Shown in pieces: positions 4,511 to 26,854 of a stretch of DNA of 35,557 nucleotides. Location: the IMG/VR virus record IMGVR_UViG_3300009161_000125, positions 1 to 35,557 of that record; one strand, written 5' to 3'. Source of the stretch: a virus. Within the stretch, counting starts at the first letter, position 1. Each line of letters begins with the position of its first letter. A model generated the notes under the pieces. The model was given only the letters and a program-made list of their open reading frames with translations, had not been told where the DNA came from and did not search any database. A program made the position numbers and the translations under genes.

Positions 4511-4532
4511 TATAATAAGTAAAGATCTACAT

Positions 4533-4572: not shown

Positions 4573-4578
4573 TATACA

Positions 4579-4965
4579 ATGGAAAATGATTTTGAAATAT
4601 TCAAGGGTAAGAATTTCTCCGATCTTTGCAAAGATATTGTAAAGAATTCGGAGGAGAAGAAAAACACTTTGGACATTTTGGTGACCGACTTGAGAGAAAT
4701 GATAAAAACTATCAACGACGCAACCATGATTGTCCCTTTATTGAAGGAGTATTTTGACGTGGGAGTAAGAAATGACGAACAGCTTATTAAATTGGCTGCG
4801 ATAATCCAAAGATTGATGGCTGGTAAGGCCGGTGGAGAAGATTCGGGTAATATGTTGCTTACGGACGAAGAAAGAAAACAATTAATGGCAAGTGTCGAGC
4901 AAGTAGTCGCAGCTTCAAAAGAACCGATGGAAGTGACGACAAAATCGTCGAAAGACAAAAAATAA
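4579..4965 (+). CDS. Unknown protein at the head of the tail operon
   Basis: 128 residues beginning MENDFEIFKGKNFSDLC. An in-frame ATG lies 48 bases upstream at 4531, but those bases are occupied by a hairpin and a promoter-like motif, so 4579 is preferred. The sequence is mostly helical (KNSEEKKNTLDILVTDLRE, then IVPLLKEYFDVGVRNDEQL) with a Lys/Ser-rich tail. No known domain. Its stop overlaps the hub/spike start as TAATG, so it is translationally coupled to a baseplate gene and may be a small baseplate or chaperone protein. Confidence 0.72.
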   Translation: MENDFEIFKGKNFSDLCKDIVKNSEEKKNTLDILVTDLREMIKTINDATMIVPLLKEYFDVGVRNDEQLIKLAAIIQRLMAGKAGGEDSGNMLLTDEERKQLMASVEQVVAASKEPMEVTTKSSKDKK

Positions 4966-6491: not shown

Positions 6492-6492
6492 C

Positions 6493-7053: not shown

Positions 7054-7062
7054 AACAACTCT

Positions 7063-7071
7063 ATATTTATA
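7063..7071 (+). promoter_or_regulatory. Candidate late promoter, ATATTTATA
   Basis: An exact copy of the shared nonamer, only 6 bases before the ATG at 7078 in a 24-base gap between genes. No Shine-Dalgarno sequence fits in the remaining space. Confidence 0.55.
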
Positions 7072-7077
7072 GTATAT

Positions 7078-7524
7078 ATGAAAAAGAATGAATTAGTCGA
7101 TATAATTAGAACCTTAGTAAAGGAAGAAGTGAATAACGCACTTCCACAGTTATTGATGGAAGTTTTGGCTGAGAGACTATCCGAGAATTCGGCGGCAATA
7201 TTGGAAAATAGAGCTGCTACAATACAACAATCGGTTAAGAGTAAAGTGGAGGTATTCATGGAGCAGCCGGATGCACCAGCCCCCGTCGCACAACCGCAAA
7301 AAATGTATTCTAAGAATCCATTATTGAATCAAGTTCTCAATGAGACTACAGGGGGAGTGCCAAACGAGTCAACCATGCAAAGTTCAGTTGATATTTTACA
7401 ACAACTGACTCCGCAGCAGTTGAATGAAAACAAGGAAGTTGCCGCTGTGGCCAACGCTTTGAAAAAAGATTATAGATCACTTTTAAAAGCAATGGACAAG
7501 AAAGTCAGCGAAAAGCGTCGTTAA
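7078..7524 (+). CDS. Helical protein of unknown function in baseplate cluster
   Basis: 148 residues starting MKKNELVDIIRTLVKEEV. The N-terminal 60 residues are amphipathic helix. A Pro/Ala-rich linker (DAPAPVAQPQ) and a second helical region (SSVDILQQLTPQQLNE, then KKDYRSLLKAMDKK) follow. No recognised domain. The opening resembles that of the protein encoded at 34608 (LIRELVEEVLDEM). It lies three bases before the gp25-like gene and so is very likely co-expressed with the wedge. It may be a small virion component or assembly chaperone. Confidence 0.75.
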   Translation: MKKNELVDIIRTLVKEEVNNALPQLLMEVLAERLSENSAAILENRAATIQQSVKSKVEVFMEQPDAPAPVAQPQKMYSKNPLLNQVLNETTGGVPNESTMQSSVDILQQLTPQQLNENKEVAAVANALKKDYRSLLKAMDKKVSEKRR

Positions 7525-7527
7525 TCA

Positions 7528-7938
7528 ATGTCCACCGCAGTAAAAACTCCAATCGGGTTAACCTTTCCCATATCGCACGGGCCTATGGGGTATTTTAACC
7601 AAAGTTTTGATGTGGTCGATCAAGTAAAAGCAAATCTTTATCTTTTATTAAACACTAAAAAGGGAGAAAGAAGATTTAATTTGGACTTTGGTTCTTCATT
7701 GTGGGATGTTTTGTTTAATTTCAATAACGAAGAATTACAATCTATTTTAGAAAGTGCTATAAAAAAGGATGTAAAACAATGGTTGCCATTTGTCAATATA
7801 AAAAGTGTGACGGTAGGTAACTCAGACGAAGAGAAAGATGGGTATTATGTAAAAATATCCGTTGTATTTACCGCAGACAATGTTGGTATAACATCCCCAC
7901 AAAATATTACATTGGTTGCCGCACAAGGAAATATATGA
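7528..7938 (+). CDS. 25: Baseplate wedge protein, gp25-like
   Basis: 136 residues, almost exactly the size of T4 gp25 (132). The family signature KGERRFNLDFGSSLWDVLF is at residues 45-63, followed by helices (ELQSILESAIKKDVKQWLP) and a beta strand pair. In contractile tails this protein sits at the wedge core and links to the sheath initiator ring. Its stop overlaps the gp6-like start as ATGA, matching the usual 25-6 pairing of myovirus baseplates. Confidence is high. Confidence 0.9.
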   Translation: MSTAVKTPIGLTFPISHGPMGYFNQSFDVVDQVKANLYLLLNTKKGERRFNLDFGSSLWDVLFNFNNEELQSILESAIKKDVKQWLPFVNIKSVTVGNSDEEKDGYYVKISVVFTADNVGITSPQNITLVAAQGNI

Positions 7939-9821
7939 TACTAGAAACGCAAAAATCATTTCAACCGGCAAAAAAAGATGTAAAATATCTAAACAAAGAC
8001 TTTTCACAGTTGAAAAAGTCCTTGGTTGATTTTGCCAAGGTATATTATCCTAACACGTATAAGGACTTCAACGAAGCGTCCGTGGGTATGATGTTTATCG
8101 AAATGGCAGCCTACGTTGGAGATGTTTTGTCTTATTACGTAGATTATCAATTCAAGGAATCGATGCTTGTAAATTCGGAAGAAAGACAAAACATTATAGA
8201 CTCGGCGCGTTCACTTGGATACAGAGTAAAAGTATCAACTCCGTCTGTGACTTCACTCGATGTTTATCAACTCGTACCATCTAAAACAGATGCAAACGGA
8301 GAAATTGTACCCGACTTAACGTATGCTCAGATAATAAAGCCTGGTATGACTGCGGTCAGCGACAACGGCGTAAGTTTCATAACAAACTTCCCTGTCGATT
8401 TCACAGTTGACACGAAAAATGATCCGTTGGAAATATCGGTCTATCAAAGAAACTCCTCCGGTCAACCTGAATTTTATGTTTTAAAAAAGACCGTTGTAGC
8501 CTCCGCCGGACAAATAATAACAAAGACTGTCACCGTGTCGGACCCGACATCATTCTACAGATTCGAATTGGCCGAAACCAACGTTGTCGGTATAATGGAT
8601 ATGTACGATTCTGACGGAAACCGTTGGTACGAAACGGAGTATTTGGCTCAAGACATGGTTCCTATAGATTCGGAAAACATATTCAAAAATGACATGGTGA
8701 TGTCAAAATACAGAGACACTACTCCATTTTTGATCAAGTTCTTAAAAACATCAAGAAGGTTTGTCACCGGCACAAATTCGGACGATACAACTTTCATAGA
8801 ATTCGGAGCCGGTACGAACGTAAAAGACGACGAAATAATAATCCCAAATGTAAACACAGTTTCAAACCAATCTTTATTTAGAACGGAAAATGTTTCGTAT
8901 GATCCAGCAAACTTTCTATCATCAAAATCATACGGGCAAGCGCCCGCCAACACGACGTTGACAATACGATACGTGGTCGGTGGCGGCGTGGCGAGTAATG
9001 TAAATGCAAACTCGATAACAAACGTAACATCCGTCGAATTTTTCGGAGATATAACCGAACTTCCAAACTTGGAGCAAAATCTAACAAGTACGGTAAGACG
9101 CTCCATAAAAGTTAATAATTCTATACCCGCCGTTGGTGGTATGGGTAGTGAATCAAACGACAGTATTAGAACAAACGCACTTGCTAACCATTCCGCTCAA
9201 AATAGAGCGGTGACCCAGCAAGACTATATAGTCAGATCGTATGCGATGCCTTCAAAGTACGGATCTATCGCGAAGGCATATGCAATAGCAGATCAAACTG
9301 TAGATACTTCGAAGACCAACTACAACCCTTTCGCGGTCAATCTTTATATACTCTGTTACAATAGTCAAAAGAAACTAATAACGTCAAATATCGCCATTCA
9401 AGAAAATTTAAAAACTTATCTGAATCAATATAGAATGTTAACGGATTCGGTTAACATAATAGATGGATATATTATAAACATCGGGGTGGATTTTGGAATA
9501 ATCGTATATAAAAATTACAATAAGAGAGACGTACTGACCAATTGTTTAACAACAGTTCAAGCATATTTTAATATAGACAATGCTCAATTCTGTCAACCAA
9601 TCAATCTAAGTAGATTAGAGTTGGAAATAAGTAGAGTTGACGGCGTACAGTCTGTAAATTATTTAAAACTAAAAAACTTAACGGTCAGGGATGGTGATTA
9701 TTCCCCATACGAATACAATATTCAAAGTGCGACTGTGGACAAGATCATATATCCCTCATTGGACCCCTCGGTTTTTGAAGTAAAATATCCAACTAAGGAT
9801 ATTGTCGGAAAAGTGCTATAA
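7935..9821 (+). CDS. 6: Baseplate wedge protein, gp6/BaseplateJ-like
   Basis: 628 residues (T4 gp6: 660). The N-terminal region has the typical helical segment with YYPNTYKDFNEASVGMMF and FIEMAAYVGDVLSYYVD (54-70), then ARSLGYRVK (91-99), all hallmarks of gp6/J proteins. A beta-rich middle with a Gly-rich section (TLTIRYVVGGGVASN) and a C-terminal J-type region with NRAVTQQDYIVRSYA and SRLELEISRVDGVQSVNYL complete it. The protein forms the inner iris of the baseplate wedge with gp25. It is translationally coupled to gp25. Assignment is secure. Confidence 0.92.
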   Translation: MILETQKSFQPAKKDVKYLNKDFSQLKKSLVDFAKVYYPNTYKDFNEASVGMMFIEMAAYVGDVLSYYVDYQFKESMLVNSEERQNIIDSARSLGYRVKVSTPSVTSLDVYQLVPSKTDANGEIVPDLTYAQIIKPGMTAVSDNGVSFITNFPVDFTVDTKNDPLEISVYQRNSSGQPEFYVLKKTVVASAGQIITKTVTVSDPTSFYRFELAETNVVGIMDMYDSDGNRWYETEYLAQDMVPIDSENIFKNDMVMSKYRDTTPFLIKFLKTSRRFVTGTNSDDTTFIEFGAGTNVKDDEIIIPNVNTVSNQSLFRTENVSYDPANFLSSKSYGQAPANTTLTIRYVVGGGVASNVNANSITNVTSVEFFGDITELPNLEQNLTSTVRRSIKVNNSIPAVGGMGSESNDSIRTNALANHSAQNRAVTQQDYIVRSYAMPSKYGSIAKAYAIADQTVDTSKTNYNPFAVNLYILCYNSQKKLITSNIAIQENLKTYLNQYRMLTDSVNIIDGYIINIGVDFGIIVYKNYNKRDVLTNCLTTVQAYFNIDNAQFCQPINLSRLELEISRVDGVQSVNYLKLKNLTVRDGDYSPYEYNIQSATVDKIIYPSLDPSVFEVKYPTKDIVGKVL

Positions 9822-9866
9822 TATCTTACCATTCGCCTTTAGGATGTATATTTTTCGGTGGGTTGT

Positions 9867-9875
9867 ATATTTATA
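9867..9875 (+). promoter_or_regulatory. Candidate late promoter, ATATTTATA
   Basis: An exact nonamer 17 bases before the preferred ATG at 9893, inside the 71-base gap after the gp6-like gene. Its position is incompatible with translation starting at the upstream in-frame TTG (9863), which supports the ATG as the start. Confidence 0.55.
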
Positions 9876-9892
9876 TAGTATTAACCACAGTC

Positions 9893-11143
9893 ATGCATTA
9901 CTTTTTATATCCAACCAAAGACGCATTTATTTCAAGTAACCCCGTTTTAATGTTCAAGAACACTGGGTTGGATGAGATACTCGAAATCGAAAAGAGAACA
10001 AGTTACTATGCGTGCGGTAGTACCGAAGGAAACTTAGGTTCCGTTTTAACTAGAGCTTTATTATATTTTGATCTAACACAGATATCTCAGTCGATAGCAT
10101 GTGGCCAAGTAACAAATCCGAGATTTTACCTCAACTTGAAGGTTTGCGAATCTATGGAAGTACCGAGTGCATATACGCTCGCGGCGTATCCTGTATCAGA
10201 ATCTTGGCAAATGGGAACTGGGTACAAATTTGATGAAAACGATTACTCCGATGGTGTAAGCTGGAAATTCAGAGATGGTCAATCGCAATATTGGTATAGC
10301 GGATCGATTTCAAGTTGCGAAGGCGGCGGGCTTTGGTGGGTATCTGGTAGCTTAATTGGGTCTGGCTCTGGTTATGTTGAACCACCTTTTGTGAGTCCAA
10401 ATCCATACGATTTATATCCAGACTGCCCGAGTACGACTACGACCGCAGCACCAACTCCGCCAGTCGCTCCTATCACCGGCGGATTGGCTTGTTCTCAATC
10501 TTTTTACTATCAATCATCGGACGTGCGCATGGATGTAACAAACATCGTAAATGCGTGGATATCCAATACAATCGTAAACAATGGATTGATAGTTATGCAC
10601 AGTGATGAAACCAGTTCCGTGGATTATGGAACATTGCGCTTTTTCTCAAAGGAAACTAATACTATATATTCACCGTACTTAGATGTTGCTTGGGAAGATT
10701 CTGAAATAGCTTGGATGACGCCTGGGTTCAATACGTCAAGCGCAGAACCAATTCAAATACGAGACGCGGTCGTGTCTATGAAGAATATGTCCAAGGAATA
10801 TAAGTATGGGTCGATACTAAGAATGGATGTTACTCCTAGAAAGCGTTACCCTGTTAAAACTTTCGCTAGAGGACCGGGGGATATCCAAAGATTTTCGGAC
10901 TATCTATATCCATATTACCTACCGTCATCCAGCTACTATGTGATAAAAGACGCGGAGTCCGAAGAAGACGTTATACCATACGACGCATACACTCAATTGA
11001 GCTTTGATTCCTATGGAAATTATTTCATGTTGGATACAAGTGGATTGCCACAAGAAAGATACTTTAAAGTTCAAATACGAGCCGAGCAAAGCGGTTCTAT
11101 AATGACATTTGACATTCCCACTCCATTCAAGATTTCGAGATGA
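9893..11143 (+). CDS. DNRLRE-like (CBM96-type) beta-sandwich tail/baseplate protein
   Basis: 416 residues from the ATG at 9893; a TTG at 9863 in frame is rejected because a promoter-like motif overlaps it. Residues 1-110 and 200-268 together read like a DNRLRE sandwich: NLGSVLTRALLYFDL (47-61), FYLNLKV, SAYTLAAYPVSESW (92-105), then MDVTNIVNAWI (213-223) and YGTLRFFSKET (245-255) ending PYLDVAW. Between them sits an insert with aromatic and Gly-rich sequence and a linker PSTTTTAAPTPP (179-190). The C-terminal 150 residues are beta-rich and unassigned. DNRLRE/CBM96 domains bind polysaccharide or stabilise surface proteins, so a glycan-contacting role at the tail is plausible. Its stop overlaps the next start as ATGA. 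Confidence 0.7.
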   Translation: MHYFLYPTKDAFISSNPVLMFKNTGLDEILEIEKRTSYYACGSTEGNLGSVLTRALLYFDLTQISQSIACGQVTNPRFYLNLKVCESMEVPSAYTLAAYPVSESWQMGTGYKFDENDYSDGVSWKFRDGQSQYWYSGSISSCEGGGLWWVSGSLIGSGSGYVEPPFVSPNPYDLYPDCPSTTTTAAPTPPVAPITGGLACSQSFYYQSSDVRMDVTNIVNAWISNTIVNNGLIVMHSDETSSVDYGTLRFFSKETNTIYSPYLDVAWEDSEIAWMTPGFNTSSAEPIQIRDAVVSMKNMSKEYKYGSILRMDVTPRKRYPVKTFARGPGDIQRFSDYLYPYYLPSSSYYVIKDAESEEDVIPYDAYTQLSFDSYGNYFMLDTSGLPQERYFKVQIRAEQSGSIMTFDIPTPFKISR

Positions 11144-11358
11144 ACGTAAATCCATACTTATCTAGTTATTCTCAAGATGATATTCTGAGTTTATATTCCA
11201 GTGGATCTATTCAACCGAGAATAGACGAGTCTGCAAACTTAATATTAGAAAACACACGGTCTTTGTTCGTGTCTTCAATAACGATCCCTTTAAAAAACAC
11301 ACAAGCAAACAATGTAAAAGTAGAAACAAAATACTCGCTTGCATTCACGGAACTATGA
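11140..11358 (+). CDS. Small virion-cluster protein, unknown
   Basis: 72 residues. The ATG overlaps the preceding stop (ATGA) and its own stop overlaps the next start (ATGA), so it is coupled on both sides between two tail genes. The sequence (SQDDILSLYSSGSIQPRID, then SLFVSSITIPLKNT) suggests a short helix followed by beta strands. No domain recognised. It may be a small peripheral baseplate subunit. Confidence 0.7.
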   Translation: MNVNPYLSSYSQDDILSLYSSGSIQPRIDESANLILENTRSLFVSSITIPLKNTQANNVKVETKYSLAFTEL

Positions 11359-14300
11359 ATTTAGAAAACATTAAATATACAATACCATCTACATCGTCAT
11401 TGACGATTGGGTCGTATATTGAAAAAGATAATTGGGACTATATAAAGGATAGTACCGAAGTATACGGATTTCCGTTTGGTAAGTCGGACAAAGATTATTT
11501 TGATGTAAGTGTGTATGCTTTGGATGATACTCTTATCACCGAATCCGTAGTAAAGCCAAGTGGGATTTATAAACCTTTTACCGGTTCATACTACGACGTT
11601 AGAAACAACCCGGTAACATACAGTCACGAATATTTTGTAACGGATCTAGTTATTTCTGGTAAAGATACACAGTCCGTCCTGATAAATCTGGCACAAGAAC
11701 TTGATAAGCTTTCTGTGACCGACGGTAATTATAAAGTTGGAATCCAACTCAACCGAGACTTAGTCGGAAGCTCTTTTGATTCTTCGCAACGTTTGATGAT
11801 AGATGAAATTTCTCCATCTAGAACGGAAGTATCTATAATTCCCATAAGTTTAAGAACTAGTATCAGAGAAAGTGATATAAAATTATTGCGCGAATTTGAA
11901 TCTTTTTCTACGGGAAAACTCCAAATAAAAGAAGTATTGGATCAAATAGTCAGTGCTATAGAATCGCCGGAGATATACAATATCTATTATTACGCAAAGA
12001 ATGAAAACACGAAAGCGGCAAACGATTTTCTTTTTTATTACGGATTAAAGCAAAACGTAGATGCTATAAAATTTATAACAGATTTATATTACGGAGTTAA
12101 GAAGGAGAATCAACTCGCCGTAGGAACGTATAACAGAGACATTCTCGGTATCTATGACCAGTTTTATAATTGGCTTCATCAAAATTACAATACGATTGTA
12201 TCTTTCCAAGAATTGAAAGATGTGTATTATTCTTTGTTCTCTTTCATAGTAGAAAAAGAACTGGCTGCTATCAATGCATATAAGCCGGAAACATATCAAA
12301 ACATAGTCCAGTTTTTATCTGACATATACTATTCGTTGATATTTTTCCCAGCCATATCCAAGATAGAAACTAATTACAACAATTTATTGGTTGGTTATTT
12401 TAAGAATTATTTGAATTTTGGAAATGGAAAGATGCTTCCAATAATGAACTCCAAGTTCATTGAGTCGCAAGATCCTAAATTCCACGACAAATTGATAGTA
12501 AAGCTGTCATCTCCACTGGATAACTCCATTCCCGTAGGATCCATGTTATGGATAGTCAACATGTTTGCATCGGCACCGATTGTTCAGAACACATATTATT
12601 TTACAAAGAAAGAAATACAGACCATCCCGTTGAGAGGTCCAAACTTTACAGTTAAGATAGAGAGCAAGGGAAATTCGACGGAGACACTGTCTAGCGCCGA
12701 ACTTATGGGGGAGACTGGTAGTTTATATCAGGAACTATTTTCAAAAGTCAATGCAAAATTGAACAATGAGTTCTTGGACACCGTAGATTATAGATATTTT
12801 GAAAATTTTATAAATTTTTCAACCGCAACATTGCGACTGAGTGCTTTCGATGAAAAGCTGTCGGGAATAAACTTGTTAGAAAAAGAAATTTCGGATTTAG
12901 AAATCAAGTTGTTAGTACAGCCGAGTGATATTTTTTATACAAAAGATAAAGCTACGGCGGAAGACGCCATCAATGAAATAAAAGCATCATTCGACGGTTA
13001 CGAAAATTTCTTATACAAAAACCCGAATTGGTATTCGGAACACGTAAACGCATACGAGTCTCAAAGTTCAGCTTCAATCTACGACCAATCGAACGGTGAC
13101 AGTTTAATAAACAATCTCCCAGAATTCATAGGAACGGGTACTGGAAATGAAGAGTATGTCAAGTTTGTCGGAATGATAGGACATTACTTTGATAATTTAT
13201 CTGTGTTCATAAAACAGTTCACAAATAAAAATGACAGTTCTAATTCTCCCGCGAGAGGAATATCCCCCAGTATAGTTTCTGACATGCTTACGTCACTTGG
13301 ATGGGAATCTGAGATATCCAAGGAAAATTTACCGTTGCTGTTGTCGTCTCTTTCCAAGTCGGACTTTTCACCGTCTTCTTCATTCTATAACAAAGTTGGT
13401 ACCATATCAGAAACTGATAGAAATCGCGTAATTTGGAGAAGAATTTTAAACTCGCTACCATTCATTTATAAAACAAAGGGGACCGAGGCTTCTATAAATG
13501 CTATCATATCTTGCTTCGGTGTACCTAAAAATTTGATAAAGATAAAAGAATACGGTGGTATTGACAGTGTAATAGACTCTTCAGACAAATCGTATTATAT
13601 ATTCGATCACGTTAAATACGAACCATACTTCAGTGGAAGTGGAGAATATTTTGAATCAAGTTGGACTGGCAGCATTCAGACTGTCGAATTCAATGTAAGT
13701 TTCGACGAAAACAAAATAGAAGAAGAAAACAAGATATTTTATATCGCGGGATCGCCTGGTTATTGGAACATTGGAGCGATCCGCGACAGAGGAAAACAGT
13801 GGGGACGGTTGTTCTTTACGATAGACGATGGAGTTAGCTCCAAGAGCGTTTCAACAACAAAAATACCAATTTTTGACGGAAAAACATATAGCGTGATGTT
13901 GAGACGGAATGATCCGTATTATAAATTTAATATCGCAACGGCTTCGAACGCGGTGATAGACCAATACTCCATCCAATACGATTTGGTGGTAAAACGCGCC
14001 GAAGACTCGCGCATAGTTTACTCGGCGAATGGAAGTACGTTGATAAGTGGTAGTCTGAATACAACTTTCAGAAACGGGACGACTGTTCAATTTGGTGATA
14101 ACTGGTATGGATCAACCGGATCGTTCTGGGGAAGTATCGATGAAATAAAGCTCTGGGAGATAGCATTAACAGACGAGCGGTTTAATAACCATACTATGTA
14201 CAGAGGCGCTTACGATTCATCTACTCCGCACGAAATGGTGGAAAAGAATTTATTGCATATCTCGTTTGAACGCCCGATTGACCTATATGCCAGCGGAGGT

Positions 14301-16016
14301 GCACTGCCTCTCAACAATCTTTCGTTTAGAGACGACTTTCCAATATTCACCGCAAACAATTTTGTTCCGGTGCTGGAAGTATTATACGACGGTAACGGAT
14401 GCCCATACAACCAATCGGTTTTCCCATATCAATTCTTGCAAAAGAACATGCGGCAAACCGTCCAAGTTCCATCATACGGAGCATCTAGATTCAGAAGCAA
14501 TAAGATAAATAAAATCGATCAATTTTTGAGTAGCCCACTGTCGTCGGATAGTAGATCTTCAATACCATTAGAGTCCGTGAGTGGCAAGAACTCAAATAAA
14601 CTAGGAGTATTTTTCTCGCCGATAGATATTCAAAACGAAGAAATTTTAAAGTTTTTTGGTAGTTTTGAAATAGGCGATTTGATAGGCGACCCGCGCACTG
14701 TTTACGCCGCCACCTATAAAAAATTTGAAAAATTTAGAGAGATATATTACGAACAAGGGTTGGGTACAATCGACTATCAGTCATTTATGAATCTGGTCAA
14801 GTCTTATTTTGACAAATCAATGTTCAATTATATCAAGACGGTCATACCGGCTCGATCAAAATTGATCGAAGGTTTGATGTTGGAACCTTCTATATTAGAA
14901 AGACCAAAATTACAATTAAAGCCAATATTCAAAGAGAATGTAGAAATGCCAACGGGGTCTGTTTACAATATGGGGTATGGTATTTCTGGAAACAAAAATA
15001 CATATTACACACAGAGTTTGGATATAGGAACGAGTGGGACATCAATCTTGAACGATATAACCCACACACGTTTCAACGACGTGCCTGACGACTATGGGTT
15101 TGGAGTATATTCTGAAAATGGAGTAGCTTACTACAAGGGAGAGTATTATCGGGCTGATGTCATCCGCAATAAGAAATCATATCAGGTAAAAAGAAAATAT
15201 AATCTAGCTGGCACGGATAAGAACGAGTATGAGAAACAAGTAAATTTGGAAGGAACCGTTCAAACTATATCCAGATCTTACGATGAAGTTAGTTTGGCCG
15301 CATTACCATTGATAACAGAATTCCCAATGTATTTGATATCGGGCGGCGGCACTATGTATTATTCTGGTAGCATATCATTTGATATCGGAGCAAATGGATA
15401 CACGTCGAGTGTTCAAACGTCTGCACATTTATTGGACGGGCTTTTACTTGGAACTATTACCGGCATACCATATGATCAAAATCCATCGACGACGAGTGGT
15501 GGACAAAATGGCACGATTCTTGATTATCTGCATATTTCCGGAAGTTTCGTTCCGCAGTCGCTGGGTTCTGTGGTTTACAACGGGTTCTTTGATTCTAATG
15601 AATACGCCACCGAATTTTATTTTAGCGGAAGTATCAATTTCACCTCAGCACCGGTTGCGTCCCTACGCGGATATTATAATATCAAGTTTATATCCCAGAA
15701 TCCAACTGGCTCTTTGATTGAAGAATTCGCAATCAAAACGAGTGGAGCACTCTTTGGAACGGCAAACAACGGTATTGCTTATAAAAAGGCAGTTTCTTTG
15801 CAAAACGTACCGATAAACAGTGAACGGTTGACTGGATACTTCCCCACGCATTATATATATAAAAAGAGAGTATTCTCACAAAAAGAGATAAATTCATATG
15901 ATCAGCAAAATGCTCCGCAAAAATGGAAACGTGGAAGTCAGAATAAAAAAACAACCGTTGATGAAAAAACGGGTCTTTTAAATAACACTTACCCAGTTGA
16001 AACAAAAGCTACATAA
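11355..16016 (+). CDS. Very large tail/baseplate protein with tail-protein segment and LamG-like domain
   Basis: 1553 residues, the largest gene here. The N-terminal half is a mix of beta strands and long helices rich in Tyr, Asn and Lys. Residues about 690-725 (NRVIWRRILNSLPFIYKTKG then INAIISCFGVP) match the pattern seen in phage tail proteins near the baseplate. Residues about 765-955 look like a concanavalin/laminin-G jelly roll, ending with WGSIDEIKLWEIALTDERF, a typical LamG final strand. The remaining 600 residues are beta-rich with repeated SGS/GSI motifs and end in a basic tail. By position after gp6 it may replace T4 gp7, but I cannot show homology. The LamG-like part suggests carbohydrate or receptor binding. 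It is coupled to the upstream small gene. Confidence 0.75.
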   Translation: MNLENIKYTIPSTSSLTIGSYIEKDNWDYIKDSTEVYGFPFGKSDKDYFDVSVYALDDTLITESVVKPSGIYKPFTGSYYDVRNNPVTYSHEYFVTDLVISGKDTQSVLINLAQELDKLSVTDGNYKVGIQLNRDLVGSSFDSSQRLMIDEISPSRTEVSIIPISLRTSIRESDIKLLREFESFSTGKLQIKEVLDQIVSAIESPEIYNIYYYAKNENTKAANDFLFYYGLKQNVDAIKFITDLYYGVKKENQLAVGTYNRDILGIYDQFYNWLHQNYNTIVSFQELKDVYYSLFSFIVEKELAAINAYKPETYQNIVQFLSDIYYSLIFFPAISKIETNYNNLLVGYFKNYLNFGNGKMLPIMNSKFIESQDPKFHDKLIVKLSSPLDNSIPVGSMLWIVNMFASAPIVQNTYYFTKKEIQTIPLRGPNFTVKIESKGNSTETLSSAELMGETGSLYQELFSKVNAKLNNEFLDTVDYRYFENFINFSTATLRLSAFDEKLSGINLLEKEISDLEIKLLVQPSDIFYTKDKATAEDAINEIKASFDGYENFLYKNPNWYSEHVNAYESQSSASIYDQSNGDSLINNLPEFIGTGTGNEEYVKFVGMIGHYFDNLSVFIKQFTNKNDSSNSPARGISPSIVSDMLTSLGWESEISKENLPLLLSSLSKSDFSPSSSFYNKVGTISETDRNRVIWRRILNSLPFIYKTKGTEASINAIISCFGVPKNLIKIKEYGGIDSVIDSSDKSYYIFDHVKYEPYFSGSGEYFESSWTGSIQTVEFNVSFDENKIEEENKIFYIAGSPGYWNIGAIRDRGKQWGRLFFTIDDGVSSKSVSTTKIPIFDGKTYSVMLRRNDPYYKFNIATASNAVIDQYSIQYDLVVKRAEDSRIVYSANGSTLISGSLNTTFRNGTTVQFGDNWYGSTGSFWGSIDEIKLWEIALTDERFNNHTMYRGAYDSSTPHEMVEKNLLHISFERPIDLYASGGALPLNNLSFRDDFPIFTANNFVPVLEVLYDGNGCPYNQSVFPYQFLQKNMRQTVQVPSYGASRFRSNKINKIDQFLSSPLSSDSRSSIPLESVSGKNSNKLGVFFSPIDIQNEEILKFFGSFEIGDLIGDPRTVYAATYKKFEKFREIYYEQGLGTIDYQSFMNLVKSYFDKSMFNYIKTVIPARSKLIEGLMLEPSILERPKLQLKPIFKENVEMPTGSVYNMGYGISGNKNTYYTQSLDIGTSGTSILNDITHTRFNDVPDDYGFGVYSENGVAYYKGEYYRADVIRNKKSYQVKRKYNLAGTDKNEYEKQVNLEGTVQTISRSYDEVSLAALPLITEFPMYLISGGGTMYYSGSISFDIGANGYTSSVQTSAHLLDGLLLGTITGIPYDQNPSTTSGGQNGTILDYLHISGSFVPQSLGSVVYNGFFDSNEYATEFYFSGSINFTSAPVASLRGYYNIKFISQNPTGSLIEEFAIKTSGALFGTANNGIAYKKAVSLQNVPINSERLTGYFPTHYIYKKRVFSQKEINSYDQQNAPQKWKRGSQNKKTTVDEKTGLLNNTYPVETKAT

Positions 16017-16043
16017 AAATAGTAAAAAAAGACAAAGTTCTGT

Positions 16044-16052
16044 ATATTTATT
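16044..16052 (+). promoter_or_regulatory. Candidate late promoter, ATATTTATT
   Basis: One difference from the nonamer, 16 bases before the ATG at 16069. The 52-base gap after the 1553-residue protein gene contains no hairpin terminator that I can see. Confidence 0.5.
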
Positions 16053-16068
16053 ATCAAACTAACATATT

Positions 16069-16695
16069 ATGGCATACATCAATAATGAAATAGTCACGGT
16101 AGATGCCGTTCTTACCAAGAAGGGCAGAGAACTTCTTGCTGCTAAGGGAGGGTTAAATATCGTTTCCTTTGCACTTGCCGACGACGAAATCGACTATCGT
16201 CTGTATCAACCAAATCATCCACAAGGATCGGCATACTACGATTTGGCTATTCGCAATACACCGGTATTCGAAGCTTTCACCGACGAAACTCAAGTTTTGA
16301 AATATAAGCTAGTGAGCTTACCATCGGGCGTAACGTCTATCCCAGTTATATCTTTGGGTCAAAGCTCTATCAATGTAAGCAAAAATTACACCGGCGAGTC
16401 CGTGATTGTTCCAGCCACAAATCCGACATACAACACAACACTTGGATATACCGCAATTCTTGCAAATAAGAATGCCGGTACAGTGATCGGCGAGCAATTG
16501 TCAACAAATACGACGGCAACCATCCCAAGTTTCATCGGCGATGTAAACTCAACAACTGCACAAGTTGCAATTGGACTAAGATTCCGATTTGTACCAAATT
16601 CGGCTTTAACTCAGACCATCACAACCAATCTAACAATTGTTGGAAATGAAAGTGGTGGATCAGTGACAATCCCAGTAACCGTAAACGCAGAATAA
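16069..16695 (+). CDS. Virion structural protein, beta-rich
   Basis: 208 residues. The N-terminal part (TVDAVLTKKGRELLAAKGG, then FALADDEIDYRLYQPNHPQG and YYDLAIRNTPVFEAFTDETQ) gives me the impression of a block seen in tail-cluster proteins of large marine phages. The C-terminal 120 residues are Thr/Ser/Asn/Val-rich and look like one or two Ig-like beta sandwiches. No enzymatic motif. It has its own candidate late promoter and is followed one base later by the next virion gene. A tail or baseplate decoration role is likely but unproven. Confidence 0.72.
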   Translation: MAYINNEIVTVDAVLTKKGRELLAAKGGLNIVSFALADDEIDYRLYQPNHPQGSAYYDLAIRNTPVFEAFTDETQVLKYKLVSLPSGVTSIPVISLGQSSINVSKNYTGESVIVPATNPTYNTTLGYTAILANKNAGTVIGEQLSTNTTATIPSFIGDVNSTTAQVAIGLRFRFVPNSALTQTITTNLTIVGNESGGSVTIPVTVNAE

Positions 16696-16696
16696 T

Positions 16697-17830
16697 ATGA
16701 TATTTAAGGCATTCGAAACTACAGATTTGGTCGCTGGAAGAACTCAACCGGTATCAACTGGTATTTGGAGTGACGGACAAACAAATTGGTCCGTGTTCCA
16801 CACAAGCAGCAGACAAACACAACTTTCATCGTCTGCATACGAGCCACTGAATGGTTTGTATTATACAAACGTGTATGATGGTTCACCAACCGGCTCCGAC
16901 TCAGATGTTTACTTTTCAATGACCTACGGCCATTACGCCGGTTTGGGATCTTCAACTTTCGACTCCAACGCGTCGATTGGAAGTTTACTTTACCCGACAA
17001 AAGCTGTTTACAACCAATATCGCAATTTGTTATTGTCACCGGGCGATGTTAAATTTTCTTTCTTGACAGGATCGGTTTCTACAGCCGCCGAAGATTCGGA
17101 CGACATATACGTGATCAATTTCAGAAGTACAAAATTTAAAGACAGACTTGATCCGGGCCAATTTGAAATGTCTCTTTCCGGTTCTTCAACAACAATCTCT
17201 ATCATAGACGATTCCAGAGATAACCCAACTACAACCACCGAAACGGGCGGCAAACGTTACAATCTGATACGTGGTACCGTTGCAAGCGGTTCGCTAGAGA
17301 CCAGAAAATATGAAGGTATTGGATCCATGTATCCAGACTTGGGAATAGTAGTATTGAATCCGAGAGCTATCCAATCTTTGATTGGAAAGGTTTCTGATAA
17401 AAACGTGGGTCCAAGATCGCCCGGCGACTTGGATTATTTAAACGCGTGGAATCCGGAGTTTGCACAATTGACTAAATTATTATTTCAGTCTCTACAAACT
17501 GCATCCAGTGTGAATGGTTCGAATAAACCGATGAAAGCCAGAGTCACGGAATATGTCCCAGCTCGCCACTTTTTTGTGAGAGTAAAGAATCAAGACTTCA
17601 ATTATTCCAACAATCCAACATTCGTTATCACCGACAGTGACAACCCAGCAAGTTCGCAAGATATTGGAAAATTAAGATTTGCTGATTTCTCGACCGATCC
17701 AAAAGTGTACGTCACAACTGTTGGCTTGTACAACGAGAGTAATGACCTCGTTGCCGTAGCAAAATTGAGCCAACCAGTGTTAAAAGACTTCACCAATGAA
17801 TGCCTAATACGCATACGTTTGGACTTTTAA
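16697..17830 (+). CDS. Baseplate/tail protein with shared C-terminal module
   Basis: 377 residues, beta-rich. Its last 90 residues share a module with the end of the next protein: here HFFVRVKNQDFNYSNNPTF (Asp300 starts DFNYS) followed by VTTVGLYNESNDLVAVAKLS (from 339) and a closing LIRIRLDF. The neighbour has EFNYSTNP and MTTIGLYDEDGELAAIGKL. The module probably mediates attachment of both proteins to the same baseplate site. The rest contains many Ser/Thr strands and no catalytic motif. It resembles wedge-type proteins by position after gp6, but I do not assign a T4 equivalent. It is followed by a 69-base gap with a candidate promoter. Confidence 0.75.
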   Translation: MIFKAFETTDLVAGRTQPVSTGIWSDGQTNWSVFHTSSRQTQLSSSAYEPLNGLYYTNVYDGSPTGSDSDVYFSMTYGHYAGLGSSTFDSNASIGSLLYPTKAVYNQYRNLLLSPGDVKFSFLTGSVSTAAEDSDDIYVINFRSTKFKDRLDPGQFEMSLSGSSTTISIIDDSRDNPTTTTETGGKRYNLIRGTVASGSLETRKYEGIGSMYPDLGIVVLNPRAIQSLIGKVSDKNVGPRSPGDLDYLNAWNPEFAQLTKLLFQSLQTASSVNGSNKPMKARVTEYVPARHFFVRVKNQDFNYSNNPTFVITDSDNPASSQDIGKLRFADFSTDPKVYVTTVGLYNESNDLVAVAKLSQPVLKDFTNECLIRIRLDF

Positions 17831-17899: not shown

Positions 17900-20800
17900 A
17901 TGATCAAGCAGTTTTCGGCAGGAGACATAACCGTAAGACCATTCCAAACATTTAAAAATTGGAATATACAAAGCGTTGTGTCTGGAGCACTTGATCAACA
18001 TGGGTATCCCACGTATTTTCAGAATCTTGTAGAAATAAACGAGGGCATAAAATTTGAAGCGTCTTTTAGTATAGACGACGAAGTTAATCCATCTGGAAAA
18101 TACAAGCGTGTGGTGTACGGAACCACCGACGCTATGTTTTATAAAAACAAAAATAATCCGGCAGAGTTGTTTGGTCTGGAAGTATTTGGTGCAGACCCAT
18201 TCACCGGAAAGCGGGAGATACGCAACCTTCAAGGAAGATTTGTTGGTATGCGAATTGCGCAAAGTTATTGGGGCGAAAAGATTAAACCAAATACAGTACA
18301 AATAATAGACAATTCAAATTTACATCAAACATACAAAATTTTTGACGACGGCTTGACAAACTTGTATATAACTGGCTCATATTTCAACCACAACGACTTG
18401 ATACAAGCGGTAAAAACCAATCCGCCGCCGTCATATTGGGACACAAGTAGTGGACAATTTACATATACTCATGCTGATGGTAGGGTTGAAATACTGGGCG
18501 TAACTACGGCGAAGGAATATATGGCGATGGGATTGGCCGTTGTATACGCGGAAGATACTGGCTCGTGGAAGTACAATGTTTCCGGCGCAATTGATATATT
18601 TGAACCAGCCAACGAACATTTCGGAGAATCCGTTGACTTGTGGGACAGATACTTGGTGGTCGGTTCTCCAATGGACACGTTTAATTTATCAGCAAGTTAT
18701 CATGGCTATGCCGCGTTGTTTAAGTATGACGAAAGCCGTCATACACACAGACTGATGAGAAGATTTCATTCTCCTTTTTCATATGAAGGAATCGTTGATG
18801 AATACGGACAAAACCAAGACACGATAAATTTTGTTATATCCGGCGGATATCTATCTCCTGCAAATGAGGATGGTTACGGAACCTCGGTTTCTATAGACGG
18901 CGGATTCTTGGCGGTAGGATCGCCGCTTGGGTCAACGCCAACCGGAAGTCAAACTGGGTTGGTGCATGTATACGACAGAAACAAGGGCGGCATCGACAAT
19001 TGGGGAATAATAAACGTTCTTCAAGGAGAAACTTACGAAGATAAATTTGGAAATAGTGTCTCTATAGATGGAGATATATTGGCGGTTGGTGCACCAGGAA
19101 CGAGTGGTAGTATTGGGGCTGTGCATATCTATAGAAAAAAGAGATACGAAGAGAGTGGATCGTGTGAAAACGTATTAACAAGCTCATTAGTTTTACCATA
19201 CCCAGTCCCGACTTATATTTCCGGAAATTATACATGGACTAAGGAAGCATCGCTAACATCAAGCGCGGCACAGAGTGGTGATCGTTTTGGATGGTGTTTA
19301 AAAACAAACAATAACAGAGTGTTGATTGGATGCTATAGCGAGGAGCGTGATGGTTTTGCAACACTTTACACATGCTCATATTACTCAGCGTCGGTGGACG
19401 CATGCCCGACGGCGTCGTGGGGAGAATACAGAATTTATTACGCCGACGGATCAAATGGAGACCTCGGAATTTCTCCCGAATATGGTACCGAAGTAAGTCT
19501 ACCATACGACGGATTTGGTATGTCGGTGGCGATGGACGGTGACAATTTTGCAATTGGAAGCTATTTCGACAAGGGGTTTACTCCATATACAGGGGCGTCG
19601 CCCGAATTGGAAAAAATACTTGGTGCGGTCTATTTTTACAACTATCGTTATATCCCAGAATGTGATGCGTTCGAATATGCTATGATCAAAAAAACATTCG
19701 GTGACAGAACGTTTGAGTCGGTGAATAATTTTGGAAGGGCAATTGATATTGACTCGCTCAAAGCCGTTGTAAGTTATGAGTCAGATACGTTGGTAAGAAA
19801 TGTATATTATAACTATTCAACTGCGGAATTTAGCCTCGACGGATATTTATATCAGTCGTCGGGGTCCGATGATAGTGTACTCGGCAGAATTGAGTTATAT
19901 TCCTACGATACCTCACAGAAGAACTGGTGTTCCGACGTTGTATTGAGGCATAATAAGGAGAAGGATAGTCCATACGGTGTTTATGGGAAATCCGTTGCTA
20001 TAAATTCGAGTTATTTGGCGGTGGGATCACCAACATACAACTTAGCAAATGCCGCATCTAGGTCCGCGATTATAGATCCGTATGTTCAATCCGCTTCATA
20101 TTTTCCATACAATTGTAGTGGATCGGTATTCCTATATGACTATGCCGAATATAACAAGAATCCATACATAGGAAACATATTCTATAGGAATGGATATGTC
20201 ACGGCGACAAACACATCTTCCAATTTTTACGATATTCTTACGATGTCTGGTAGTCGTGGATTCGATATGAAATACCAAGGGACTCATACAATATACGAAC
20301 ATGAGTATTTGGTTTCAATAAAACCTGGTGAATTTAATTACAGCACAAATCCATCCGCGCTAATTTCAGACCCACTGCTATTTGATGTCAACCAAGACGG
20401 TGTGTTTGATTTATACGACGTTGATTTTATAATGAGGTATCTTAACAAAAAAAGATTTGAAGACAATTCTGTGTTTTTTGATAACGGTATGACGTTAGAA
20501 CAAGATACGTTGAATGATTATAGTTGGTGGGGCAACGATCTGCTACAGACAGAAGCCGAAGACGTGTTGCTGTTGGAGTCTGCGTATCAAGAATTCTTTG
20601 CAAGCGGGTCTTATACAATTTTCACAAAGAAAATTTTTGATTATATTGAAACCAACCTAGTAAAGACCGGAATATTGGATATTGATGGTGACGGTGACAT
20701 AGACCTAAAAGATGGTGCGATGCTGGTTGCCTACTATACCAACAAACTGACCCCATCGCTTTTAGAGACTTATATCGATGCTAGTTCAACAAGACGCCAT

Positions 20801-21046
20801 GTGAACGATATAATAAGTTATTTGGACCGTTATTGCGGTAAGAAGCTGTTCAATGTGGATCCAAACTTCTTTAACTATCAACTGTCGTCGTCCTATGACC
20901 GTACAGGGTCATATCTAGCCCCGTACATGACAACTATCGGATTGTATGACGAAGATGGGGAATTGGCAGCAATCGGCAAGCTCGGAAAGCCTATAAAAAA
21001 TTTAATTGATTGGCCGATTAATATTATCGTCCGTTTTGATACATAA
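17900..21046 (+). CDS. FG-GAP beta-propeller virion protein with dockerin-like insert
   Basis: 1048 residues. Residues 1-235 are a beta-rich N-terminal region (MIKQFSAGDITVRPF). Seven FG-GAP-type repeats follow, with FG/YG signatures at about residues 241, 325, 383, 463, 539, 611 and 695 (for example FGESVDLWDRYLVVGSP, FGNSVSIDGDILAVGAP, YGKSVAINSSYLAVGSP). Seven is the blade number of integrin-type propellers. The C-terminal module shared with the upstream gene (EFNYSTNP at 811-818, MTTIGLYDEDGELAAIGKL from 1010) is split by an insert carrying two dockerin-like calcium loops: DVNQDGVFDLYDVDF from 829 and DIDGDGDIDLKDGAML from 927. A receptor-binding or adhesive tail role is inferred. The spacing of the two loops, 98 residues, is far greater than in true dockerins. 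Confidence 0.8.
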   Translation: MIKQFSAGDITVRPFQTFKNWNIQSVVSGALDQHGYPTYFQNLVEINEGIKFEASFSIDDEVNPSGKYKRVVYGTTDAMFYKNKNNPAELFGLEVFGADPFTGKREIRNLQGRFVGMRIAQSYWGEKIKPNTVQIIDNSNLHQTYKIFDDGLTNLYITGSYFNHNDLIQAVKTNPPPSYWDTSSGQFTYTHADGRVEILGVTTAKEYMAMGLAVVYAEDTGSWKYNVSGAIDIFEPANEHFGESVDLWDRYLVVGSPMDTFNLSASYHGYAALFKYDESRHTHRLMRRFHSPFSYEGIVDEYGQNQDTINFVISGGYLSPANEDGYGTSVSIDGGFLAVGSPLGSTPTGSQTGLVHVYDRNKGGIDNWGIINVLQGETYEDKFGNSVSIDGDILAVGAPGTSGSIGAVHIYRKKRYEESGSCENVLTSSLVLPYPVPTYISGNYTWTKEASLTSSAAQSGDRFGWCLKTNNNRVLIGCYSEERDGFATLYTCSYYSASVDACPTASWGEYRIYYADGSNGDLGISPEYGTEVSLPYDGFGMSVAMDGDNFAIGSYFDKGFTPYTGASPELEKILGAVYFYNYRYIPECDAFEYAMIKKTFGDRTFESVNNFGRAIDIDSLKAVVSYESDTLVRNVYYNYSTAEFSLDGYLYQSSGSDDSVLGRIELYSYDTSQKNWCSDVVLRHNKEKDSPYGVYGKSVAINSSYLAVGSPTYNLANAASRSAIIDPYVQSASYFPYNCSGSVFLYDYAEYNKNPYIGNIFYRNGYVTATNTSSNFYDILTMSGSRGFDMKYQGTHTIYEHEYLVSIKPGEFNYSTNPSALISDPLLFDVNQDGVFDLYDVDFIMRYLNKKRFEDNSVFFDNGMTLEQDTLNDYSWWGNDLLQTEAEDVLLLESAYQEFFASGSYTIFTKKIFDYIETNLVKTGILDIDGDGDIDLKDGAMLVAYYTNKLTPSLLETYIDASSTRRHVNDIISYLDRYCGKKLFNVDPNFFNYQLSSSYDRTGSYLAPYMTTIGLYDEDGELAAIGKLGKPIKNLIDWPINIIVRFDT

Positions 21047-23545: not shown

Positions 23546-26500
23546 ATGACAGACACTTACACAGAGCTAGAAATCGGATTTGATACGGTTGAAAAAATGG
23601 TGCACATCGCAGACGTGCATATTCGACTAGTCAAGCGTCACGATGAATATCGTGAGTCATTTGAGCGAGTGTATGAGTATGTTAAAACTACACCCGAAAA
23701 AACAATCGTGTTGATTGCCGGAGATTTGTTACATTCAAAAATAGACTTGAGTCCAGAAGCAATCCAGTTGGCAAGTGAATTCTTGAAAAACTTGGCCGAC
23801 GTTAGACCCACAATTTTAATCAGTGGTAACCACGATTGTTTGCTTACAAATAAGACGCGCCTTGATAGTTTGTCTCCAATTGTTCAAAACCTAGACCATA
23901 GTAAACTTTTTTACTTGAAGGACACCGGTTTGTATGGGTGCGGCAACATACTGTTTAATAACATGAGTGTGTTCAGCGATCCTATCGATTTCGTTGACAT
24001 AAACAAAGTTACAAAGAAGATAAAGAATCAGTTCGATACAAAGATTGCTCTGTATCATGGCGGTGTTCATGGTGCATTGACGGACATTGGTTATATAATC
24101 GAAAATAAGATTATATCTCCGATACTGTTCGATGGGCATGACATCGTTGCTCTCGGGGACATTCACAAAGCCCAAACTTTCTATATAGACAAGCTGCAAA
24201 CACTTGAAGAGTATAACTTTTTCTCTAAAGAACCGGATTTTGATCAATGGGAAGTTATTGACGATCAACTTTTACCCGACAAGGTTCATCTGCGAAAGAA
24301 GAAGTCTCCCATATTCAGATTTCCGTCAAGTTTAATTCAACAAAACCACGGCGAAGACCTGTTGAACCATGGTCTTTCGTTTTGGGATATTCAAACGAGA
24401 ACTTTCTCGCACGTTGAAATACAAAATGACTATGGATATTTTACGATAGAAATTGATGACGGTAAGTTGATTACTGATATATCAACGATGCCACTTAAGC
24501 CAAAACTGCGTGTGAAATGCAAAGACAGCGTTGCTACCGATATCAAGCGAATCGTTGCGGAAATTAGAACTTCCAAGAATATATCCGACCTAGTGTTCAT
24601 GCGGGTAGACGGCGATGACGCCAAGAGGCAGATAAATTCGCAGATTCAGACAAATCTGAATAAGATTTCTGATGTAGAATATCAAAATAAACTTCTGGAA
24701 GACTATCTAAAGAACAAGTATTCGGAGGTCATGGACGATGATACAGTGAATTCCGTAAAAGCCATAAACAAGAAAATAAATGATCTTGTTGTCGGTGGAA
24801 ATGCGTCCAAAGGTATACGATGGAAGCCAGTAAAGTTTGAATTCTCCAATATGTTCAGCTACGGGGAAGAAAACGAGGTTGATTTCACAAAGTTATCCGA
24901 CGTGTATGGATTGTTTGCGGCAAACGCAAGTGGAAAGTCCTCGTTGATGGATGCTCTGTGTTTCACGGCGTTTGACAAGAGTTCTCGCGCTTTTAAAGCG
25001 GTGCATGTGATGAATTCGCAGAAGAATACATTTGCTGGTAAATTTACATTTGAAATCAATGGAACGGAGTACGTCATAGAAAGAAAAGGTACTCGTGACA
25101 AGAAGAACAACGTCAAGGTTGATGTAAATTTCTACAAGATAGTAAACTCCGAGCAAATTTCACTGAACAGTGAAGCTCGTCGTAGCACAAATGAAATAAT
25201 CCGAGACTACCTCGGTGATTATGAAGATTTTGTGTTAACTTCACTCGCATTACAAGGCAACCAAGGTTCATTCATCGAAATGGGTCAGACCGAAAGAAAA
25301 GAATTGTTATCTCAATTCATCGGGTTAAACATATTTGATTCTTTGCATAAGGTTTCAAACGATCAATCGAGAGACTTGTCCGGTGTAATCAAGGCTTTTA
25401 ACAAGGAAGATACATCCAAAAAAATATTAGATATACAATCTATATTGGAAGTATTGGAATTGAAGATTGCGGATTTGTCTTCTCAGAAAGAAAAATTTGA
25501 AGTTGATATGGACAGAGTGAAGAAATCGATAGATGACGAAAAATTAAAAATAGTCAATGTTGATAATGTCCCGACCAACGTCGATAGATTGAAAACCGAA
25601 AAACTAGACTTGGAGTCCAAGTTGGTTTCGGCTAAATCCAACGTTGAAAATATCGTCAGAGATTTAAAATTGCTGGCGGAATCCAAGGTTACAATCGAAA
25701 AAGAATTGTTGATATACAACCCAGAAAAATTAGACGCGGATTATAAATCTTACAGTTCAAAATCGTCTTTATTAAACAAGCAAGAAATTGCATTGAATAG
25801 ATTAAAAGACTCGGTGGCAAACAAATTGGCAAAGATCAAGCACTTGGAATCGCATAGCTATGACCCAAATTGCAAATATTGCTGCGATAATGTATTCGTA
25901 AAAGATGCAATGTCTGCACGCGAAGGGTTGATCGAAGACAAAAAACAAGTTTTGGAATTAAAAACTTCAATCGAGACACTTGCATCCGAAGTATCAACTC
26001 TCAAGTCCTCCACCGAGTCCAGAGATAAATATTTGGGTATCGCGAACAAGAAGACGACTGCCGAGACGCAATATTTCAAGAAAGACTTGGAGAAGGCAAA
26101 CGCGATGATGCTTATTGAAAAGGCGACAACTCGTATTAGCGAATTGTCAACGGCAATAGAACTGTATGAAAAATCCAAAGAAGTAATAGAAAAAAATAAA
26201 ATCATACGATCCGCAATAGAAAAATTTACTACCGAGTTATATAATTTGTCGCAGAGTAAAAAAGCGGCAGAATCCGAATACACATCTGCATACAGCAAGA
26301 AAGTTTCGTTTACCGACCAAGTTGCATCTTTACAAAAGAGAATTGACGAAGTTGAAGCGGCGGAAGAAGAATATGGAGCATATCAATATTATTCCGACGC
26401 TGTTGGTAAGGACGGTATTCCATACAGAATAATATCCGACGCAGTTCCTAGAATTGAAAACGAAGTCAACAATATTTTGTCTCAAATCGTGGAGTTTAGC

Positions 26501-26854
26501 ATGAGCATTGAAACCGATGGTAAAAACGTGAATGTTTTTATAAGATACGAAGATAAAAAGTGGCCTCTAGAACTTTGCTCTGGTATGGAACGGTTTGTTT
26601 CTTCGTTGGCACTTCGTGTGGCACTAATAAACATCAGTAACCTACCACGCGCACCGTTCTTGATTGTGGATGAAGGCTTTGGTGCACTAGACGCGGACAA
26701 TATCGCAATGATACATTCGCTGTTTGACTACTTGAAGACTAATTTTGACTTCATAATAATCATTAGCCATTTGGATGCAATGCGAGACATGGTCAACAAG
26801 CATCTGGAGATTAAGAAAGAAAACGGGTTTAGTAAGGTCGATAATAGCAAGTAA
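23546..26854 (+). CDS. Fused Mre11-Rad50 (gp47-gp46) recombination nuclease
   Basis: 1102 residues in one frame. The N-terminal metallophosphoesterase has D23-x-H25, GD at 59-60, GNHD at 94-97, H171/H175 and GDIH at 204-207, so all metal-binding motifs of Mre11/SbcD/gp47 are present. From about residue 435 comes the Rad50/SbcC/gp46 part: Walker A in ANASGKSS (Gly463-Lys464-Ser465), long coiled coils around a zinc hook CKYC (776-779), the ABC signature CSGME (1011-1015), and Walker B FLIVDEGFG (Asp1042, Glu1043). The complex resects DNA ends for recombination-dependent replication. In T4 and most hosts these are two genes. A GGGGA ribosome site lies 8 bases before the ATG. No internal stop or frameshift is visible at the join. 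Confidence 0.93.
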   Translation: MTDTYTELEIGFDTVEKMVHIADVHIRLVKRHDEYRESFERVYEYVKTTPEKTIVLIAGDLLHSKIDLSPEAIQLASEFLKNLADVRPTILISGNHDCLLTNKTRLDSLSPIVQNLDHSKLFYLKDTGLYGCGNILFNNMSVFSDPIDFVDINKVTKKIKNQFDTKIALYHGGVHGALTDIGYIIENKIISPILFDGHDIVALGDIHKAQTFYIDKLQTLEEYNFFSKEPDFDQWEVIDDQLLPDKVHLRKKKSPIFRFPSSLIQQNHGEDLLNHGLSFWDIQTRTFSHVEIQNDYGYFTIEIDDGKLITDISTMPLKPKLRVKCKDSVATDIKRIVAEIRTSKNISDLVFMRVDGDDAKRQINSQIQTNLNKISDVEYQNKLLEDYLKNKYSEVMDDDTVNSVKAINKKINDLVVGGNASKGIRWKPVKFEFSNMFSYGEENEVDFTKLSDVYGLFAANASGKSSLMDALCFTAFDKSSRAFKAVHVMNSQKNTFAGKFTFEINGTEYVIERKGTRDKKNNVKVDVNFYKIVNSEQISLNSEARRSTNEIIRDYLGDYEDFVLTSLALQGNQGSFIEMGQTERKELLSQFIGLNIFDSLHKVSNDQSRDLSGVIKAFNKEDTSKKILDIQSILEVLELKIADLSSQKEKFEVDMDRVKKSIDDEKLKIVNVDNVPTNVDRLKTEKLDLESKLVSAKSNVENIVRDLKLLAESKVTIEKELLIYNPEKLDADYKSYSSKSSLLNKQEIALNRLKDSVANKLAKIKHLESHSYDPNCKYCCDNVFVKDAMSAREGLIEDKKQVLELKTSIETLASEVSTLKSSTESRDKYLGIANKKTTAETQYFKKDLEKANAMMLIEKATTRISELSTAIELYEKSKEVIEKNKIIRSAIEKFTTELYNLSQSKKAAESEYTSAYSKKVSFTDQVASLQKRIDEVEAAEEEYGAYQYYSDAVGKDGIPYRIISDAVPRIENEVNNILSQIVEFSMSIETDGKNVNVFIRYEDKKWPLELCSGMERFVSSLALRVALINISNLPRAPFLIVDEGFGALDADNIAMIHSLFDYLKTNFDFIIIISHLDAMRDMVNKHLEIKKENGFSKVDNSK

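Follow-up and report, generated by a model that had tools for sequence, protein, structure and literature searches.

A predicted FG-GAP propeller on a two-slot chassis protein in a phage tail gene cluster: a candidate baseplate-mounted adhesin

The window analyzed here, a stretch of 35,557 nucleotides from a distantly T4-like aquatic phage, comprising positions 1 to 35,557 of the IMG/VR virus record IMGVR_UViG_3300009161_000125, contains a tail gene cluster that is closed by a gene for a 1048-aa protein. The open reading frame of this gene spans exactly positions 17900-21046 and is preceded by genes for gp25 and a gp6-like protein, and then by genes for proteins of 426, 1553, 208 and 377 aa. 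The relevant features of the cluster are the following.

7528..7938, + strand, gp25-like baseplate wedge / sheath initiator (PF04965, 2.8e-12)
7935..9821, + strand, gp6-like baseplate wedge subunit (PHROG 219, 3.7e-18)
11355..16016, + strand, 1553-aa tail-cluster protein, with homologs in immuto, Mel-JY01 and LR756508
16069..16695, + strand, 208-aa neighbor, adjoining the chassis gene in cultured relatives; tree marker
16697..17830, + strand, upstream paralog, 377 aa, with the same FNYSNNP and TTVGLY C-terminal module
17900..21046, + strand, whole gene, 1048 aa: chassis, FG-GAP propeller (slot A), dockerin-like loops (slot B) and conserved C-tail

Homologs of the 1553-, 208- and 377-aa proteins are encoded by Flavobacterium phage immuto, Microcystis phage Mel-JY01 and the 484-kb LR756508, and the gene order is kept in immuto (gp113, gp112 ... 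gp105) and in Mel-JY01. The gp25 and gp6-like genes, together with this synteny, bear out the contractile-tail gene cluster proposed in the first-pass annotation and locate the propeller gene in a T4-like baseplate cluster of conserved order. Downstream of gp105 in immuto lie genes annotated as tail fiber and tail spike, and downstream of the propeller gene in the window a 93-aa ORF, a RuvC-like gene, a 218-aa gene and a primase. The portal protein is 52-53% identical to those of Mel-JY01 and immuto, with RM378 next at 32%, values that would put this phage close to the RM378 / Far-T4 group (PMC4360716), in which Roux et al. (2015, PMC4360716) detected no virus-host interaction genes of T4 type.

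Several other features of the window and of related records were recorded along the way. The C-terminal part of a DnaK/HSP70 gene lies near the record start (74-790), a peptide deformylase gene at 2606-3220, and an 1102-aa ORF fusing a metallophosphoesterase domain with an SbcC-like ATPase at 23546-26854; in contig L004 the counterpart of the latter consists of two ORFs, of 311 and 1069 aa. Contig L004 also has the 1553-aa neighbor in two pieces (ORFs of 817 and 735 aa, 3457-8118), owing either to a sequencing error or to a real split. In LR756508 (L084), ORFs that by eye resemble homing-endonuclease or transposon-type genes lie between tail genes (9123-10127, 12474-13829 and 15590-16807).

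The 1048-aa protein can be divided into the following parts.

17900..18370, + strand, chassis N-terminal part (residues 1-157), predicted beta-sandwich ending in DDGLTNL (profile-profile match)
18371..20149, + strand, slot A, predicted seven-bladed FG-GAP_2 propeller (residues ~158-750), with an N-terminal strand closing blade 7
18620..18625, + strand, FG motif, blade 1 (residue 241; motif scan)
18875..18880, + strand, YG motif, blade 2 (residue 326; motif scan)
19046..19051, + strand, FG motif, blade 3 (residue 383; motif scan)
19286..19291, + strand, FG motif, blade 4 (residue 463; motif scan)
19514..19519, + strand, FG motif, blade 5 (residue 539; motif scan)
19730..19735, + strand, FG motif, blade 6 (residue 611; motif scan), weakest by sequence
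19982..19987, + strand, YG motif, blade 7 (residue 695; motif scan)
20150..20359, + strand, chassis middle part (residues 751-820): GNxFYxxG ... HTIYEHE ... EFNYSTNP
20360..20914, + strand, slot B (residues 821-1005), dockerin-like, with two calcium-loop motifs 98 residues apart
20384..20419, + strand, first dockerin-type loop DVNQDGVFDLYD (829-840), ligand positions kept in 35/35 orthologs
20678..20713, + strand, second dockerin-type loop DIDGDGDIDLKD (927-938; motif scan), conserved in 35 orthologs
20915..21043, + strand, C-tail (residues 1006-1048), YMTTIGLYDEDGELAAIGKLGKPIKN..., common to neighboring tail genes

The first-pass annotation had described seven FG/YG repeats, and these proved real: FG/YG-x-[SACT]-[VIL] motifs number seven in the protein, compared with a mean of 0.52 and a maximum of 5 in shuffled copies (n=5000), and in the 35 orthologs the respective columns keep the motif or near forms. 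Six of the repeat positions given there (241, 383, 463, 539, 611 and 695) stand and the remaining one shifts from 325 to 326; the VGSP/VGAP-like ending said to follow each repeat is present after 241, 326, 383 and 695 but not after 463 (IGCY), 539 (IGSY) or 611 (VSYE). Columns 241, 383 and 463 are FG in 35/35 orthologs, column 695 is YG or FG in 32/35, and column 611 is FG in 25 and FA in 10. A profile search, proposed at the same time, assigns the protein to the FG-GAP_2 repeat family (PF14312; E = 1.1e-31, 109.2 bits against a curated cut-off of 23, in six stretches), and the same profile matches all 35 orthologs. When each blade in turn was left out of the HMM, five blades were recovered clearly (4e-7 to 1e-10), the blade at 463 weakly and the one at 611 not convincingly. 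No PHROGs family was found for the protein.

The structure of the protein was predicted with AlphaFold2 from a 35-row alignment. The pLDDT values are mostly 80-94 across residues 240-750, with a low-confidence loop at 423-442, and the strand order is that of seven four-stranded units, the last of which is completed by an upstream strand near residue 160; the propeller thus spans residues ~158-750 rather than the 230-760 given previously. In a Foldseek search of the PDB, the top ranks are occupied by integrin alpha chains (best E 1.4e-11), and VIA-align comparison with integrin alpha headpieces gives Z of 27-29 over about 350-380 residues (best alignment: Z 29.0, rmsd 3.3, 353 residues), in which model residues 159-749/776 cover the entire integrin ring. 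The earlier proposal of a seven-bladed, integrin-like propeller, together with the structure comparison suggested to check it, is accordingly backed by the predicted model. In VIA-align, WD40 proteins with seven blades (CIAO1, G-beta) do as well as integrins, so the alignment favors a closed seven-bladed propeller over an integrin specifically. The model supports a closed seven-bladed beta-propeller of integrin-alpha topology in the slot A region, sharing with the integrin alpha head the seven four-stranded blades and the closure of the ring by an N-terminal strand. Unlike the integrin head, to which it is about 15% identical, the window propeller is without DxDxDGxxD calcium loops in its blades (motif scan) and has no known beta partner. 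The two such loops of the protein, at 829 and 927, sit outside the ring, and only 2 isolated matches were found in the propellers of the 35 orthologs.

A wide homolog search brought up proteins of 276-427 aa that occupy the same locus and contain neither the propeller nor the dockerin-like region. In a profile-profile comparison, the window-type proteins match these homologs over residues 1-158 with a probability of 100% (E 4.7e-56). The chassis is small and conserved (about 280-430 aa) and has two insertion slots. Both immuto gp105 (357 aa) and a 304-aa ORF of LR756508 have the N-terminal, middle and C-tail parts and the gene position of the window protein but, unlike it, contain no propeller and no dockerin-like region. 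Mel-JY01 WWT39517 (591 aa) has the chassis middle part, the C-tail and a beta-rich, binding-type domain in slot A which is LamG / concanavalin A-like, in contrast to the propeller in the window. The chassis shell was modeled with a pLDDT of 81.5; there is no sequence match to it in the PDB, and the best fold match, a phage P1 head protein, has a low score that is not decisive (Z 5.4). Among 84,980 cellular genomes, no relative of the full-length window protein was found, and the chassis search yielded three MAG contigs, too few and too uncertain for naming a host.

Slot A, measured as the distance between DDGxxNL and GNxFYxxG, falls into discrete length groups (7-36, 81-145, 274-307, 551-672, 874-882 and 1414 residues), and across the relatives it is empty (7-36 residues) or contains a longer linker, a LamG lectin-like domain or the propeller. 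LamG goes with the 274-307 group, PF13385 being matched by 14 of the 21 proteins scanned; it was shown individually for L078 (residues 261-423) and lies at 180455-180970 in Mel-JY01, inside the 591-aa ortholog. Two propeller-type relatives of 2620 and 2047 aa (L064, 3323-11185, and L065, 10001-16144) have a further expanded slot A, with sequence additional to the FG-GAP repeats. Slot B, the stretch between FNxSxN and TTIGLY, is 27-92 residues long in proteins without dockerin, 183-195 in those with two loops and 296-327 in those with dockerin and LysM, the latter domain being confined to one subclade. The Dockerin_1 profile is found in 30/35 orthologs (best 1e-6); dockerin type I (PF00404) scores 20.3 bits with the window protein, under the Pfam cut-off of 22.9, which some relatives exceed. 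The loop spacing of 98 residues in the window protein is far wider than in a canonical dockerin. No cohesin (PF00963) was detected in 12 records of related phages, mostly fragmentary ones, and we therefore read the dockerin-like loops as calcium-stabilized structure, slot B being probably a calcium-stabilized element. Among the proteins sampled, the propeller profile goes together with the dockerin profile, and the short and LamG forms have neither.

The C-tail is the most conserved part of the protein, with a median identity to the window of 76% among orthologs versus 43% for the propeller; the upstream paralog also has it, as do five tandem genes in Mel-JY01. This module of ~40 residues (T-T-[IV]-G-L-Y ... 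AVAKLxKPxxK) recurs in adjoining tail genes (L082-L084, L168 and window 16697-17830), with five copies in tandem in Mel-JY01, two in immuto, two in LR756508 and one in RM378.

The use of such an adhesin-like protein had been regarded as not commonly described for T4-like tails, which overstates the rarity, given that FG-GAP proteins are annotated in the cyanophages S-TIM5, S-MbCM6 and S-H9-1, where they are labeled virion, structural or baseplate, and in Vibrio phage nt-1 (VPFG_00309, an FG-GAP repeat protein). Like the window protein, those of S-TIM5 (AEZ65754), S-TIM61, S-MbCM6 (YP_007001806), S-H9-1 (YP_010669571) and nt-1 have FG-GAP_2-type repeats and come from T4-like phages, and the S-MbCM6 gene adjoins baseplate wedge genes. 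The differences lie in the architecture: the S-TIM5 and nt-1 proteins are stand-alone propellers of ~400 aa whereas the window propeller is mounted on a chassis, and the S-MbCM6 protein, unlike that of the window, is very large (gene of about 21 kb). Profiles of the chassis, C-tail and dockerin region found no match at the cyanophage or Vibrio phage FG-GAP loci examined. The only whole-protein match among 50,697 phage records, XYS97267 of Sinorhizobium phage Phosso (3692 aa; 22.7% over the propeller), differs in having dozens of FG-GAP_2 repeats and no chassis match. Phosso (PV764938.1, 48338-68978 and 92124-94532) encodes two giant FG-GAP_2 proteins and two of about 400 aa, with 64 repeat matches altogether. 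BFVD contains many predicted viral propellers of FG-GAP type, and a literature search found no paper on FG-GAP in phage tail fibers. Since FG-GAP proteins are already present in cyanophage baseplate clusters, the propeller itself is not new; what seems undescribed, in the libraries and papers searched, is the two-slot chassis. The first-pass annotation had missed this chassis, the relatives in which slot A is lectin-bearing or empty, and the dockerin-type calcium loops.

In a phylogenetic tree built on the 208-aa neighbor rather than on the propeller gene itself, the propeller-bearing phages form one clade (100/99), and the propeller state requires one change compared with a mean of 29.5 after shuffling; the propeller form arose once on this tree. 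LamG-bearing phages, labeled by slot-length group and not by individual LamG matches, fall elsewhere. The simplest reading would be that an ancestral short protein acquired the propeller by one insertion and that LamG entered the same place independently; an alternative history would involve domain swap or loss. Comparison does not separate the roles of the propeller and slot B, as both arose on a single branch. The whole gene evolves under strong purifying selection (dN/dS 0.036-0.040 versus two 94%-identical orthologs), and for the propeller, rapid adaptive change was rejected (dN/dS 0.03-0.04, strongly purifying). Among near relatives, DNA identity drops to 75% in the propeller compared with 83-94% elsewhere in the gene; the more diverged segment (window 18800-20000) differs mostly at silent sites, and this extra divergence may reflect exchange of propeller alleles.

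Taken together, the sequence comparisons suggest that the window protein is probably a baseplate-mounted adhesin with putative host-surface binding. Mounting on the baseplate is the well supported part of this prediction, given the synteny and the shared C-tail, whereas presence in the virion, outward display and binding are what we infer, the latter two from the nature of the exchangeable domains. A propeller at one fixed site where relatives have a lectin-like domain or nothing looks like an exchangeable host-gripping part, and recognition of host surface polymers by the modeled propeller is plausible. Under the proposed mechanism, the N-terminal beta-sandwich, the middle part and the ~40-residue C-tail of the chassis would anchor the protein among its paralogous contractile-tail neighbors. 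A loop of the sandwich (slot A) would have received the closed seven-bladed FG-GAP_2 propeller, to be displayed as an adhesin, and one face of the disc would bind a host-surface polymer or glycoprotein, helping the tail to dock. A second chassis loop (slot B) would hold the two dockerin-type calcium loops, and LysM in slot B of one subclade would add likely wall or glycan binding. Virion proteomics naming the chassis protein was not found in the immuto isolation paper.

Elsewhere, the role of FG-GAP propellers can also be purely one of protein-protein contact, and propellers of the integrin and WD40 types are classic platforms for binding proteins. The propeller could thus be a structural connector, an intravirion hub that attaches another tail protein, for instance a long fiber, to the baseplate and has no contact with the host, a reading we consider unlikely. 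It would fit the position of the gene at the end of the baseplate cluster, where fiber and spike genes start in immuto, and the separate S74 fiber-type ORFs of two related propeller-bearing records (1517 aa in that of L030 and 2095 aa in that of L042), which imply that the propeller protein need not be the only receptor binder and that the main one may be a different protein; the immuto fiber gp104 has one short match, in the record of L030 only. The purifying selection also favors a connector and counts against an adhesin, because receptor-binding tips often show rapid amino-acid change. However, relatives at the same locus either do without a slot A domain or carry the lectin-like LamG there, a pattern more in keeping with an exchangeable surface module than with an obligatory connector. 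Less probable still, the propeller, and LysM in one subclade, might bind extracellular polysaccharide, mucilage or particles, keeping the phage near its hosts and not triggering infection: LamG and LysM, which are carbohydrate or surface-binding domains, occupy the same slots and other fiber candidates exist for specific recognition, but the sequence looks the same under this reading and under that of an adhesin. A cellulosome-like docking of slot B into a cohesin, by which enzymes would be attached or host cohesins gripped, would agree with the conserved loops and the Dockerin_1 matches but is highly improbable in view of the absence of a cohesin from the 12 related records, the wide loop spacing and the sub-threshold dockerin score.

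Returning to the adhesin reading, it is possible, although we advance this tentatively, that Far-T4 / RM378-related phages mount exchangeable adhesin domains (propeller, LamG, LysM or nothing) at fixed insertion points of a two-slot baseplate chassis. In the window protein, a predicted integrin-type propeller is joined to a tail baseplate chassis via loop insertion rather than by fusion to a fiber tip. The idea is testable in cultured relatives, namely immuto, which has no propeller, and Mel-JY01, which has the lectin-like domain. If it is true, the exchangeable slot domains would constitute a host-recognition device unlike tip-swapped tail fibers. The propeller protein is a concrete candidate for host contact by widespread, largely uncultured aquatic relatives of T4.
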